Positions 22,464-43,624 of a DNA stretch of 64,000 nucleotides are shown here, piece after piece. Made by a program: the position numbers and the translations under genes. The stretch is from Halomicrobium zhouii. GTDB lineage: Archaea; Halobacteriota; Halobacteria; Halobacteriales; Haloarculaceae. Numbering within the stretch: the stretch's first letter is position 1; each line of letters begins with the position of its first letter. The notes below the pieces were generated by a model that made no database searches, was not told the DNA's origin, and was given only the letters and a program-made list of their open reading frames with translations. Location: contig NZ_FOZK01000001.1 in NCBI RefSeq assembly GCF_900114435.1, positions 992,001-1,056,000 on the forward strand. Reading direction: 5' to 3'.

Positions 22464-22654
22464 GTCTGGGCCTGTCGGTACGTTCCGCTGTTTCCCGTTT
22501 CTGGGGGACCCAAACTCCTTTCTCCGCTACCTTCAGATAGCGAGAGAATTTCGCCGTTCACGGCACGGGGGATGTCACTTCTCTGATCGATACAGTGTGT
22601 AGAGGTCTCGTTTGGTCGGTCTCGAACTGGTGACGTGGCTGGAGACGACACTAC
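22464..22654. other. Spacer before composite repeat
   Basis: No gene recognised; lower GC than the flanking genes. It ends where the first arm of the composite repeat begins. Confidence 0.35.
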
Positions 22655-23047
22655 CTCGAAAGCCCTCGGCGCGCTCGACTCGTGCGAACCCACTGCGCGC
22701 GCTCGTTCCTCGCGTGCTTGCGGGTTCGGACGTCGTCGAGCCCGCCTCGCCCTTTCATTCCGCCAGGATCAGCCTCGCTCGCGCGATAAAACGCGCTCGC
22801 GATTAGGGCCACCACTCCTCCCCGGTCGCGCCGCGTCCGCGGCGCGACACGCGTCCCTTCCGCAACCGCGCGGCGGTCGGCCGGGAGCGCGTTTCATCGC
22901 GCGACCAGGGGGAGGGCAGGGCTGCGGTCCCTGGAGGACTGAAAGGGCGAGGCGGGCTCGGGGAAGCCGGGCGATGCAAGGACCGCAGCCGAAGGCGAGG
23001 ACCGCAGCGAGCCCCGCGACCCGAGCGCGCCGAGGGCTTTCTGGTTC
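22655..23047 (-). repeat. Composite structured repeat, locus 1 (two inverted hairpin elements around a hairpin core)
   Basis: Two about 115-base elements lie in opposite orientation: 22655-22767 (minus) and 22929-23047 (plus). Each starts with GAAAGGGCGAG and ends with GAGGGCTTTC when read in its own direction, and each can fold into a long hairpin. The spacer holds GCGCG-ATGAAA-CGCGC-type hairpins and a perfect 10-bp stem with 2-base loop at 22826-22847. The same composite recurs inverted at 42946-43519. No protein is encoded. The family is not one I recognise; a transcribed RNA or a MITE-like element are both possible. Confidence 0.8.
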
Positions 23048-23441
23048 TTGCTGTCGGTGTTCATTTCACCAACACAACCGAGAACCACCCGTTCCATAAA
23101 CAGAGACACCCAACAGTCGAATCTCACACTCGAAGACCACTCCGGGACACGCGATACGAACCGTTCGGATGGGATCAATAGCACTCCGGATCCCTCATAG
23201 CAAGCGACTCCACCTGTGGGTCCCTCTCCTCACTCGCTCGTCCCCGAGAGGTGAACCATCGCCGTCACTACCACTGAGTCACCGCAGGCTGTCAGATCCA
23301 TCGGCCCGGTCCCGCTCATTTTTCGAAAGCACTGAAAACCGAACCGGAGCGACGTCGAGCGTCGGCGTCCGAATTGCGGCAGCTGAAAGTTCGTGGGCCG
23401 TGACCGGCCCACGCGAAACCGTTCGGTTCGGACGCTCGCGG
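23048..23441. other. Intergenic region downstream of BGTF protein
   Basis: No gene seen. The part 23048-23220 has lower GC than the genes around it. Open frames here lack initiation context and haloarchaeal composition. Confidence 0.35.
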
Positions 23442-28525: not shown

Positions 28526-30562
28526 ATGAACGACGGTGCGGCGCTGGGCGTCGACGTCGGCGGCACCTTCACCGACGTCGCACTGCTCGCCGACGGGGAC
28601 CTGACGACGGCGAAAGTGCCGACCACGGGCGACCAGCACGTCGGCGTCCTCCGCGGCGTGGCGGCGGCGTGCGAATCGGCCGGCGTCGACCCCACTGGCG
28701 TCGGTCGCTTCCGTCACGCCACGACTGCCGCCGTCAACGCGCTGCTGGAAGGCCAGGGAGCGACGACCTACCTGGTCACGACAGCTGGCTTCGGCGACGT
28801 CCTCGAAATCGGTCGCCAGGACCGCCCCGAACTGTACGACCTCGCGGCGCGCAAACCCGACCCCCTCGTCCCTCGCGAGCGCCGTTTCGAGGTCGACGAG
28901 CGCGCGACGGTCGACGGGATCGAACGTCCCGTCGACGAGGGTGAGATCCGCGACATCGCCGACGAGATTCGCAAGGGCAGGGGCGGCGGTGGCGACAGCG
29001 GCGACGACGTCGAGGCGGTCGCCGTCGCGTTCCTCCACGCCTACGCTCACCCGGCAAACGAGCGTCGCGCTGCCGAAATCCTCCGCGAAGAACTCGACGC
29101 CGCCGTCTCGGGGAGCCACGAGGTGCTCGCGGAGTTCCGCGAGTACGAGCGGACCGCGACGACCGTCGCCGACGCGACGGTGACTCCCGTGGTCGACGAC
29201 TACCTCGCGAGGCTCGACGAGCGGGCGACCGAGCGGGGGCTGCCGAGTCCACGGGTCATGCAGGCCAACGGCGGCATCGCCGACGCCGGGACGGTCCGCC
29301 AGGACGCCGTGACGACGGTGCTCTCCGGCCCGGCGGCGGGGGTCGTCGGCGCGTCGGCCTTCGAACCCCCCGACGCCGACGGCCTGGTCACGTTCGACAT
29401 GGGCGGGACCTCCTGTGACGTCTCGCTGGTTCGCGACGGCGACGTCGAACGGACGACCGAGGGGTCGGTGGGCGGCCACCCCATTCGGATTCCGATGGTC
29501 GCCGTCGAGACAGTCGGCGCGGGCGGTGGCTCCGTCGCCTGGGTCGACGCCGGCGGCGCGCTCCGTGTCGGACCGCGGTCGACCGGCGCCGACCCGGGCC
29601 CGGCCTGCTACGGGAAAGGGGGCACAGCGCCGACGGTCACCGACGCGGCGCTCGCGCTGGGGTACCTCGGCGCCGACACAACCCTGGGCGAGGGGCTGGA
29701 ACTCGACGCCGAGGCCGCGGAGTCCGTCCTCGCCGACCTCGCGACGGACGCCGATCTGGACGGCCCCGTCGCGGCCGCCCGCGGCGTCGTCCGCGTCGCC
29801 AGCGCCACGATGGCCCGCGCGGTCCGCCGGGTGACGGTCGAGCAGGGCTACGACCCGCGCAACTTCGCCCTCGCGGCCTTCGGCGGCGCGGGACCGATGT
29901 TCGCCGCGTCGCTGGCCGACCGCCTGGGCATCGGCCACGTGGTCGTCCCCCGGGCCAGCGGCGTCCTCTCCGCGTTCGGCCTGCTCGCGGCCGACGAGAG
30001 CCACGACGCCGTCCGGACCCACCGGGTCCCGCTCGCCGACGCGGATCCGGTCACCGTCGACGGCCTGTTCGGGGATCTCGCCGAATCGGTCCTGTCCGAC
30101 ACCGCCGACCCGGACCGGGCGACCGTCTGCCGGCAGGCCGACCTCCGCTACGCCGGCCAGAGCCACGAACTGACCGTCGACGTGCCCGATGCCTTCGACC
30201 CGGCCGCCGTCCGCGACCGGTTCCACGCGGCTCACGAGTCGGCCCGCGGCTACCGCCTCGACGACGAACCCGTCGAACTGGTGAGCCTCCGCGCGACGGC
30301 GAGAGTCCCCGGCGAGACGCCGGCGCTCACGCACGACGCCGACGGCGACTGCGCAGGTGACGCCCTGACCGGCCGGCGCGAGGTCGTCTTCGCCGAATCC
30401 CGGACCGAGGCGCCGGTTTACGACCGCCGACGACTCCCCGCCGGCACCGACATCGACGGTCCCGTCGTTTTCGAGGGCGGCGAGAGCACCGTCGTCTGCC
30501 CGCCCGACTGGACCGCCAGGGTGGACGACCGGGGGACCATCCACCTGGAGGCGAGCGAGTGA
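28526..30562 (+). CDS. hyuA: Hydantoinase/oxoprolinase subunit A
   Basis: A 678-residue ATP-dependent amidohydrolase subunit of the HyuA/OplahA family, which opens hydantoins or 5-oxoproline with ATP in the cytoplasm. The N-terminal actin-like ATPase motif is GVDVGGTFTDVALL (about 8-21), and RHATTAAVNALLEGQGA follows near 59. The central phosphate-binding region is VTFDMGGTSCDVSLV (about 289-303), then AGGGSVAWVDAGGALRVGPRSTGADPGPACYG (near 333-364) and the C-terminal GAGPMFAASLADRLG. Length is normal for the family. HyuB follows downstream, so the two should form one enzyme. The actual substrate cannot be read from the sequence. Confidence 0.92.
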   Translation: MNDGAALGVDVGGTFTDVALLADGDLTTAKVPTTGDQHVGVLRGVAAACESAGVDPTGVGRFRHATTAAVNALLEGQGATTYLVTTAGFGDVLEIGRQDRPELYDLAARKPDPLVPRERRFEVDERATVDGIERPVDEGEIRDIADEIRKGRGGGGDSGDDVEAVAVAFLHAYAHPANERRAAEILREELDAAVSGSHEVLAEFREYERTATTVADATVTPVVDDYLARLDERATERGLPSPRVMQANGGIADAGTVRQDAVTTVLSGPAAGVVGASAFEPPDADGLVTFDMGGTSCDVSLVRDGDVERTTEGSVGGHPIRIPMVAVETVGAGGGSVAWVDAGGALRVGPRSTGADPGPACYGKGGTAPTVTDAALALGYLGADTTLGEGLELDAEAAESVLADLATDADLDGPVAAARGVVRVASATMARAVRRVTVEQGYDPRNFALAAFGGAGPMFAASLADRLGIGHVVVPRASGVLSAFGLLAADESHDAVRTHRVPLADADPVTVDGLFGDLAESVLSDTADPDRATVCRQADLRYAGQSHELTVDVPDAFDPAAVRDRFHAAHESARGYRLDDEPVELVSLRATARVPGETPALTHDADGDCAGDALTGRREVVFAESRTEAPVYDRRRLPAGTDIDGPVVFEGGESTVVCPPDWTARVDDRGTIHLEASE

Positions 30563-30601: not shown

Positions 30602-30712
30602 GTGGGACTGAAAGGGGCCGGTCGCTCGCGGAGCGAGAACCCGCAAGCACGGTCGAAGGCCGCGCGCAGCGAGGTTCGCAGCCCGCGAGCGACCGGGGGC
30701 TTTCCTTGTCTG
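30602..30712 (+). repeat. Hairpin repeat element, single copy between hyuA and hyuB
   Basis: Member of the same family as the 22.7- and 43-kb elements. It opens GGACTGAAAGGGG and closes GGGGGCTTTCC. CCGGTCGCTCGCGG (from 30618) pairs with CCGCGAGCGACCGG (near 30692), separated from the GAAAG/CTTTC base stem by three G-G mismatches. An inner GAACC/GGTTC stem and CGCAAGCAC are shared with the element at 22655. It lies in the only gap of the hyuAB operon. Confidence 0.75.
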
Positions 30713-30767: not shown

Positions 30768-32339
30768 ATGAACAGGAATCAAAAACTGGACGCCGTCGAA
30801 CTCGAGATCCTCCGGAATCAACTCGAGAGCGTCGCTGAGGAGATGGGCCAGGTCCTCATCCGGGGCGCCTACTCGCCCAACATCACCGAGCGGCGGGACT
30901 GCTCGACGGCGGTGTTCGACGCCGACGGGCGCCTCGTCGCGCAGGCCGAACACGTCCCGGTTCACCTCGGGGCGATGCCGCGTGCAGTCGACGCCGTCCT
31001 CGAGAAGGACCCCCAGCCGGGCGACGTCTTCGTCCTCAACGACCCCTTCGCCGGGGGAACGCACCTCCCGGACGTGACGCTGGTCTCTCCGATCAGTCCC
31101 GAGGACGAAATCGTCGCCTACGCCGTCTCGCGGGCCCACCACGCCGACGTCGGGGGGATGGCGCCGGGGAGCATGCCCGCGGGCGCACGAGAGATTCAAC
31201 AGGAGGGCGTCCGCGTCCCACCGATTCGACTCGTCCGGGACGGCGAGGTAGTCGATGACGTGCTGGACCTCTTCCTGGCGAACGTCCGCAATCCCGAGCA
31301 GCGCCGACCGGACGTGCGCGCGCAGCTAGCGGCCAACGAACGCGGGGCCGAGCGAATCGACGACCTCCTCTCGACCCACGGCGACCGCCTCCGCACCGCC
31401 TTCGACGCGGTGATCGACTACTCGCGCGAGCGCGTCGAGACCGAAATCAGGGATCTGCCGGACGGCACCTACCAGGCCAGCGACGTGCTGGAGGGCGACG
31501 GGGTGACCGAGGACGACGTCCCCGTCGAGGTGACGGTCACCGTCGACGGCGCTGCCCTCGACGCCGACTTCGCGGGGACGGCCTCACAGGTCGCGGGCAA
31601 CGTCAACGCGCCGCTGGCGGTCGCCGAGAGCGCAGTGTACTACGTCGTCCGCTGCGTCACCAATCCGGACGTGCCGCCGAACGCGGGCTGTTACGAGCCA
31701 ATCTCCGTCAACGCGCCGAAAGGCTCGCTGTTGAATCCCGAGCCACCTGCGGCAGTCGTCGGCGGCAACGTCGAGACGAGCCAGCGGGTCACCGACGTCG
31801 TCTTCGACGCACTCGCCGAGGCGGCGCCCGACCGCGTCCCCGCCGCTGGACAGGGGACGATGAACAACCTGATCGTCGGCGGGCCGGGCTTCACCTACTA
31901 CGAGACTATCGGCGGCGGCGCGGGTGCGAACCCGGCCAGCGACGGCCTCTCCGGCGTCCAGGTCGGGATGACGAACACGGAGAACACGCCCGTCGAGGCC
32001 CTCGAAGCCGAGTACCCGCTCCGGGTGACGACGTACGCCCTCCGCGACGGCAGCGGCGGAGCAGGCCGCTACCGCGGCGGCGACGGACTGGTCCGGGAAC
32101 TCCGGCTCGAAGCGGACGCCACCGTGTCACTACTCACCGAGCGTCGTCGCGTCGCGCCGCCGGGACGGGCCGGTAGTGAGGACGGCACGACGGGCCTGAA
32201 CCTCGTCGACGGCGAGGCCGTCCCGGCGAAGACGACGCTGCAACTCGACGCGGGGACGACCGTCCGCGTCGAGACGCCGGGCGGTGGCGGCTACGGGACG
32301 TCGGACGACGGGGATACGTCCCGTTCCACGAACGATTAA
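30768..32339 (+). CDS. hyuB: Hydantoinase/oxoprolinase subunit B
   Basis: A 523-residue HyuB-family subunit, the partner of HyuA. Typical blocks: [38 protein letters not shown] region at about 13-50, [10 protein letters not shown] (about 62-71), [19 protein letters not shown] (about 84-102), [16 protein letters not shown], and the C-terminal [18 protein letters not shown] with [10 protein letters not shown]. The start ATG at 30768 is chosen because family members begin a few residues before the DAVELEIL motif; an in-frame upstream start would run into the repeat element. The 205-base gap to hyuA is occupied by a hairpin repeat, so the genes may rely on read-through. Confidence 0.92.
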
Positions 32340-36895: not shown

Positions 36896-36980
36896 GCCGA
36901 GGTAGCCTAGCCCGGCCAAGGCGGTTGCCTCGAAAGCAACTGTCCTCACGGACACAGGAGTTCGAATCTCCTCCTCGGCG
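36896..36980 (+). tRNA. tRNA-Ser (anticodon CGA)
   Basis: An 85-nucleotide class II tRNA. Acceptor stem GCCGAGG (36896-36902) pairs with CCTCGGC (36973-36979), followed by discriminator G. The anticodon loop in TTGCCTCGAAAGCAA gives CGA. A long variable arm (CTGTCCTCACGGACACAG) and the T-loop GTTCGAATC are present. No intron. It decodes UCG. Confidence 0.95.
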
Positions 36981-42854: not shown

Positions 42855-42945
42855 ACTGGTCCACGGCTATCTTCCCTTTTGAATCGTTCGCTAGGAGCAG
42901 GATTGGTCTGATATGAAGCAAGGTGTACGGGATCTGAGACCAAAA

Positions 42946-43519
42946 CCTCGAAAGCCCTCGGCGCGCTCGGGTCGCGGGGACCACCCTGCGCTCCTCGCTG
43001 CGCTCCGGTGCTTGGGGGCCCCGGCTTCGCCGAGCCCGCCTCGCCCTTTCAGTCCTCCAGGACGGCACAGCACCGCAGCCCTGCCCTTCCCCTTCCACGC
43101 GAGCGAAGCGAGTGTGGGCTCGAAAGACGAGGTGTGCCGAGTCTTTCGGTGGGTCGCGCGATGAAACGCGCTTCCGGCCGGGTGGTTGCGGAAGGAAGCG
43201 TGATTCGCGGCGGACGCCGCGAATTCGGGGAAGGGTGGTGTCTCGGCGAGCGGAGTGAGCCAAGGCTCGTCAGAGCAAGCTCTGACGGTGGAGTCAACCG
43301 CGAGCGCGTGGCGAACGGAGTGAGGCCGCGCGAGCAACACTGTCTCTGGTGTCGTGCGCGAACGCAGTGAGCGCACTGCTCAGGAGAGCTTGCTCTCCTG
43401 GTGGACTGAAAGGGCGAGACTCGTTCCGGGAACCCCGACGACGCAAGGACCCGAGTGAGCGGAGCGAACGAGGACCGCAGCGAGTCGCGGGACCGGAACG
43501 GGTCGAGGGCTTTCTGGTC
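42946..43519 (+). repeat. Composite structured repeat, locus 2 (two inverted hairpin elements around a hairpin core)
   Basis: The element at 42946-43061 (minus orientation) and that at 43395-43519 (plus) flank a core. The core 43155-43230 (GCGCGATGAAACGCGC, CCGGCCG, GGTTGCGGAAGG, then a perfect 10-bp stem at 43203-43224) matches locus 1 read in reverse. The distal stem of the 43395 element differs from the other copies yet still pairs (GACTCGTTCCGG with CCGGAACGGGTC). About 180 extra bases with repeated GAGCGGAGTGAG-like words separate core and right element. Non-coding. Confidence 0.8.
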
Positions 43520-43624
43520 GTTGCCGGTTCTATCGTCAGTCACGTCTCGACATACAAGTATCAGCTCAGTTTTCGATCCTAGTCGACGGAACGCTTTTCA
43601 CGGGAGATACGTATCTCAGAGTCA

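Follow-up and report, generated by a model that had tools for sequence, protein, structure and literature searches.

The dispersed hairpins of Halomicrobium zhouii analyzed here are probably the conserved core of class-wide, non-autonomous transposable elements of the IS6 type (MITEs). The family is assigned to this type because of its IS6-type ends, its 8-bp target duplications and the matching transposase genes. Within the hairpin core, covariation and a marked excess of G·U over A·C pairs indicate that one strand folds, and the same core is found at a plasmid locus beside a gene for an RPA-like protein. The mobility of the family was not visible to the reader of the earlier note on this DNA, who had the sequence alone.

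Hairpin copies and the folded strand

The window is a stretch of 64,000 nt of the Halomicrobium zhouii assembly GCF_900114435.1 (NZ_FOZK01000001.1), and "the H. zhouii genome" below refers to the same assembly. All five hairpin copies listed in the earlier note were found, with slightly tighter limits. The note had missed that four of the five form two inverted pairs (minus, then plus), each with the two 5' ends turned inward, towards a stem-rich mosaic middle. The features of the window are as follows:

22477..23147, no strand: segment with pair A; congener G146 has 483 unrelated bases here instead of 671
22658..22761, minus strand: hairpin core copy 1, GAATGAAAGGGCGAG variant, left half of inverted pair A (CM R1, 104.7 bits)
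22762..22935, no strand: mosaic middle of pair A, with first letters GCCAGG, last letters CCTGGA and several stems inside
22936..23041, plus strand: hairpin core copy 2, right half of pair A (CM R1, 85.8 bits)
23042..23106 (limits approximate), plus strand: Y-type outer flank of pair A, a flank common to other copies, with the presumed element end
30605..30704, plus strand: hairpin core copy 3, single, GAAAGGGGCC variant, between the hydantoinase A and hydantoinase B genes
42892..43588 (approximate extent), no strand: inserted element B; the flank matches are 73-77 bp apart in relatives versus 769 bp here
42950..43055, minus strand: hairpin core copy 4, left half of inverted pair B (CM R1, 107.7 bits)
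43056..43402, no strand: mosaic middle of pair B, made longer by small nested hairpins; the G146 middle at the same site is shorter
43403..43514, plus strand: hairpin core copy 5, right half of pair B (CM R1, 81.5 bits)

Middles homologous to that of pair A occur in more than 40 other pairs of the H. zhouii genome. Small GC-rich hairpins, e.g., GCTCGTCAGAGCTTGCTCTGACGGT and CGAGCGAAGCGAG, sit within the loops and middles of many copies (for example at window 43056-43402, L022 and L040) and resemble nested mini-elements. Tandem repeats of ~52 bp, each consisting of the 3' end ...GAGAGCGNGCCGAGGGCTTTC and flank, lie outside some copies (G000:C1:240354-240900 (L014, L206), L030, L043, L056, L067). 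The window also holds a leuA-Halobacteria leader RNA (RF03001; 45145-45197, plus strand) and a tRNA-Ser(CGA) (36896-36980, plus strand).

The architecture of the copies is as originally claimed, with a GAAAG/CTTTC basal stem, two G·G mismatches, a C-G pair, tandem G·A/A·G mismatches and a variable distal stem; copy 3, the GAAAGGGGCC variant, has three mismatches. A search with the 16-mer GGACTGAAAGGGCGAG, allowing up to 2 mismatches, gave 74+75 sites in the 4.25-Mb H. zhouii genome versus 2+2 for the reversed pattern, i.e., a family of about 149 copies against 4 in the control. Most of these copies form inverted pairs, minus then plus, with a middle of typically 165-350 bp. Across 83 aligned copies from this genome, the mismatch block is almost fully retained (G·G/G·G in 83/83, G·A in 82/83, A·G in 81/83), and it is kept in 131 of 134 copies from other genera, all fetched by the 5' 16-mer. 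Pairing in the 83 copies amounted to 91.1% of cells versus 77.6% after shuffling, and the covariation score was 0.330, compared with 0.119 ± 0.006 for shuffles and at most 0.06 for slid controls. Double (compensatory) changes were found in 19 of 31 stem pairs, which bears out the claim that the distal stems differ between copies and still pair. The 5' CCTGGYGGAC of the core is unpaired and invariant. In Halosimplex (L073, L098, L104, L111), a second type of distal domain, GGGCMCTATCCG...GAGGATATCCC, stands on the same basal stem in the place otherwise taken by the CAAGCAC...GCGCAG type.

A G·U pair on one strand corresponds to A·C on the opposite strand, so that an excess of G·U marks the strand that folds. 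In the first ten distal-stem pairs, the G·U:A·C ratio was 40:9 in the H. zhouii genome (p about 1e-5) and 52:11 at other loci, mostly from other genera (p about 2e-7), both p-values being uncorrected for shared ancestry. This excess points to the CCTGGYGGACTGAAAG strand, i.e., the one reading CCTGGYGGACTGAAAGGGCGAG, as the folded one, and argues for selection on one folded strand. The folded molecule may be RNA or single-stranded DNA: the sequence fits either, and the two cannot be told apart by the G·U excess. It appears improbable that the stems covary free of selection, through arm-to-arm templated correction in replication or gene conversion between copies. Template switching predicts that whole stems are exchanged in a single step and that modules form mosaics among the copies, and both are seen; however, the G·G and G·A mismatches should vanish under such a process, yet they persist, and the preference for G·U over A·C in both sets is left unexplained. 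Templated arm-to-arm correction may contribute to the covariation.

The covariation, the kept non-canonical block, the invariant unpaired 5' segment and the G·U excess would also suit a host structured-RNA family, either a trans-acting small RNA or an mRNA leader or tail element, that is selected at each site and mobile only incidentally. Copy 3 fits such a family as well, being located inside an apparent hyuA-hyuB operon (hydantoinase A, 28526-30562; hydantoinase B, 30768-32339); at the same site in G146 the hairpin is present with its whole stem replaced and pairing kept. We nevertheless consider a host RNA family unlikely, as there is no gene-orientation preference (single copies: 28 same-same, 17 opposite-opposite, 24 divergent, 20 convergent), the neighbors are random, with no recurrent gene near chromosomal copies, and near-identical copies with target duplications have spread recently. 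Moreover, no T-run was found 3' of the hairpin, and the window, the plasmid loci and selected relatives gave no Rfam match at the gathering threshold and nothing credible at E ≤ 5. A terminator or mRNA-tail role was rejected, given the absent T-run and the absent orientation bias. The proposal that a folded molecule is selected therefore survives in part: the covariation, the kept mismatch block and the one-strand G·U excess support it, but the hairpins are not a free-standing RNA gene family, their intact relatives having the make-up of MITEs of the IS6 type, with inverted repeats at their ends and 8-bp duplications of the target.

Element ends, target duplications and spread

The covariance-model search of haloarchaeal genomes suggested in the earlier note was run and detected the core in 126 out of 145 sampled Halobacteria genomes, representing 50 of 58 genera. 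Carriers include Halosimplex, Halorussus, Halonotius, Haloparvum, Halovenus, Natronomonas, Haladaptatus and Haloarcula. In the 17 genomes counted, each capped at 150 scored candidates, the number of copies ranged from 14 to 148. The copies are almost always intergenic. A phage or virus origin was rejected, since there were no phage matches and viral contigs gave one bare 16-mer; a literature search for the core sequence returned chance matches only.

In congener G114, copies are 97-99% identical across ~320 bp. The units there are of the twin-hairpin form, about 310-360 bp long, with 17-bp inverted repeats GGYRGTGTTCAGATAAG at their ends, which read GGTAGTGTTCAGATAAG and its inverse. The sequence TGTTCAGATAAG has 43+45 sites in this genome versus 0 for the control, mostly in pairs 300-420 bp apart, and 8-bp target duplications, many of them perfect, were found at most of 15 loci (e.g., cagcaccg, atcgcacg, ttcgcgcc, gtgcagtt). 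G089, from a different genus, carries 216-217 bp units with one hairpin each that share the ends of the G114 units, and perfect 8/8 target duplications occur at three loci (GAAATGAG, ACTCATAG, GTCTCACT). The hallmarks of the IS6 family are 8-bp duplications, GG tips and a cTGTt motif (PMC7986276), and the units resemble IS6 insertion sequences and MITEs in their 17-bp ends, GG tips, TGTT and 8-bp duplications and in the lack of a transposase gene. An IS6-family transposase flanked by these ends is encoded in a 695-bp element of the H. zhouii genome, GGCAGTGTTCAGATTAG...CTTATTTGAACACCGCC (L347; NF033587, E=2.4e-48, above cut-off), and another by a G114 ORF adjoining the same repeat (L348, L351; NF033587, E=1.7e-54, above cut-off). 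The L347 transposase, the sole one of its type found in the H. zhouii genome, may be frameshifted, in a frame without a clear N-terminus, a point against the MITE reading.

We propose that an IS6-family DDE transposase made elsewhere in the genome would recognize the 17-bp ends and insert the short element into intergenic DNA, giving rise to the 8-bp target duplication. The ends and duplications can be read in the sequences of G114 and G089; the transposition itself is presumed, and would occur in trans. The single-hairpin form consists of repeat, ~63 nt, hairpin, ~25 nt and repeat (216 bp), whereas a twin unit (about 310-360 bp) contains a pair of hairpins inverted relative to each other. In the window, pairs A and B are twin units that are old and enlarged, and a single copy is present as well. 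A DDE transposase is not known to require a fold within the element, which counts against the MITE reading.

In a set of copies mostly from other genera, position-locked IS6-type ends were present in 14/120 copies versus 1/875 controls, at 63 nt before and 22-25 nt after the core. The other 106 of the 120 scored below 15/24 and had no recognizable repeats, which also counts against the MITE reading. An unlocked search for repeats with a perfect 8-bp duplication around single copies in other genera gave 0/121, because the ends have decayed; ends were found by the position-locked test. Twin units of the H. zhouii genome are larger, and one outer flank terminates in GGTCAGTACAGGTGAGC, the opposite one in GGTGTGTGAGTTGAGC. 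In about half of 37 units these ends occupy fixed positions; they are degenerate and only resemble the IS6 repeat. Target duplications were found around 0/37 of these copies (mismatched-pair control, 2/432), and both results weigh against the MITE reading. With the duplications missing and the ends degenerate, the membership of the window copies therefore rests on homology, that is, on the shared core, the twin architecture and the evidence of insertion. At the site of pair B, the flanking matches are separated by 73-77 bp in four congeners and by about 47 bp in a fifth (G145); the element is present in G146 and absent from five congeners. Pair A is absent from G146. The window copies are old, being inserted relative to relatives, with half-decayed ends and the target duplication gone.

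Dispersed intergenic palindromes, inverted pairs and a single folded strand would also suit elements of the REP/BIME or PATE kind, mobilized in single-stranded form by an IS200/IS605-type Y1 (HUH) transposase. Haloquadratum has PATEs (PMC3119063), which are, like the present family, small, transposase-free, palindromic, haloarchaeal and high in copy number; REP/BIME elements associated with RAYT are likewise intergenic palindromes, often in inverted pairs with mosaic spacers. However, PATEs are IS605-type derivatives that by definition have neither terminal inverted repeats nor target duplications (PMC3119063), whereas the intact units here have both. REP cores are 20-40 bp long and Y1-linked, in contrast to the ~105-nt cores here and the DDE-type repeats that bound the units. 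No hairpin lies beside the Y1 transposases of the H. zhouii genome. We regard movement by a Y1 transposase as highly improbable, and the duplications already contradict it. An integron attC reading, suggested by the conserved base and variable stem, is unnecessary because of the target duplications.

The core at plasmid RPA-like loci

In many haloarchaeal plasmids, the core ends a conserved, strongly structured noncoding region of ~530 nt that is divergent from an RPA-like gene, the C-terminal part of which matches replication factor A models. The same arrangement of core and ~530-nt region stands beside both closest RPA-like paralogues of the H. zhouii genome. The RPA loci include L234-L241, L284, L285 and others, e.g., L236:4001-4551 on the minus strand; the ~530-nt region has no Rfam match there and is a candidate large RNA or origin-like element. 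At L238:4008-4117 (plasmid pHTIA of Halorhabdus tiamatea), the core and the end of a gene annotated as an HNH endonuclease overlap.

The core may possibly have begun next to the RPA-like gene, serving plasmid replication or maintenance, and later have been captured by an IS6 MITE, the chromosomal copies then being decoys or by-products. Such an origin is suggested by the near invariance of the RPA-locus cores, by their position at the end of the ~530-nt region without repeats and beside both close paralogues, and by the occurrence of the RPA-like gene in 82/126 core-bearing genomes versus 3/19 without the core. Against it, G114 and G089 are rich in copies and lack such a gene. The absence of IS6 repeats at 20 plasmid RPA-locus cores counts against the MITE reading. 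Capture concerns origin and is compatible with the MITE reading, and it may have run in either direction: the MITE may have taken up an element of plasmids, or a MITE core may have become fixed in them.

The core fold on the CCTGGYGGACTGAAAG strand would be selected by some factor, as the covariation, the kept mismatches and the G·U excess suggest. Most likely, although we hold this with roughly even confidence, the core acts as RNA upon read-through, as a putative binding site for a host or plasmid factor; alternatively, it may work as single-stranded DNA. We tentatively hypothesize that a transposon carried this strand-specific folded domain, shared with the ~530-nt plasmid region, across the Halobacteria, and that the MITE makes use of a fold-reading factor from the plasmid or the host.

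Relation to known elements and significance

ISfinder holds two IS6 MITEs of 227 and 336 bp (PMC7986276), which could be relatives, as compared by description; their lengths are close to those of the 216-bp and 310-360-bp units here. MITEHsal1 and MITEHsal2 of Halobacterium salinarum, the latter of 411-413 bp with an 8-bp duplication listed, are also haloarchaeal MITEs, again compared by description (PMC10264941). IS6 MITEs are thus already known; unlike those described in the texts searched, the present family has a class-wide core hairpin with a strand-specific pairing constraint, and a MITE with such a folded interior shared with a plasmid locus was not found in the literature searched.

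The interior of a MITE is usually expected to drift freely, because a DDE transposase depends on the ends alone. In this family, conservation is highest in the interior, which folds on one strand and is shared with a plasmid locus. For dispersed repeats, covariation alone is no proof of an RNA gene. If our reading is true, the family would account for a large unannotated share of haloarchaeal intergenic repeats, and its covarying variants, up to hundreds in a genome, would make a natural library in which to seek the protein recognizing the fold.
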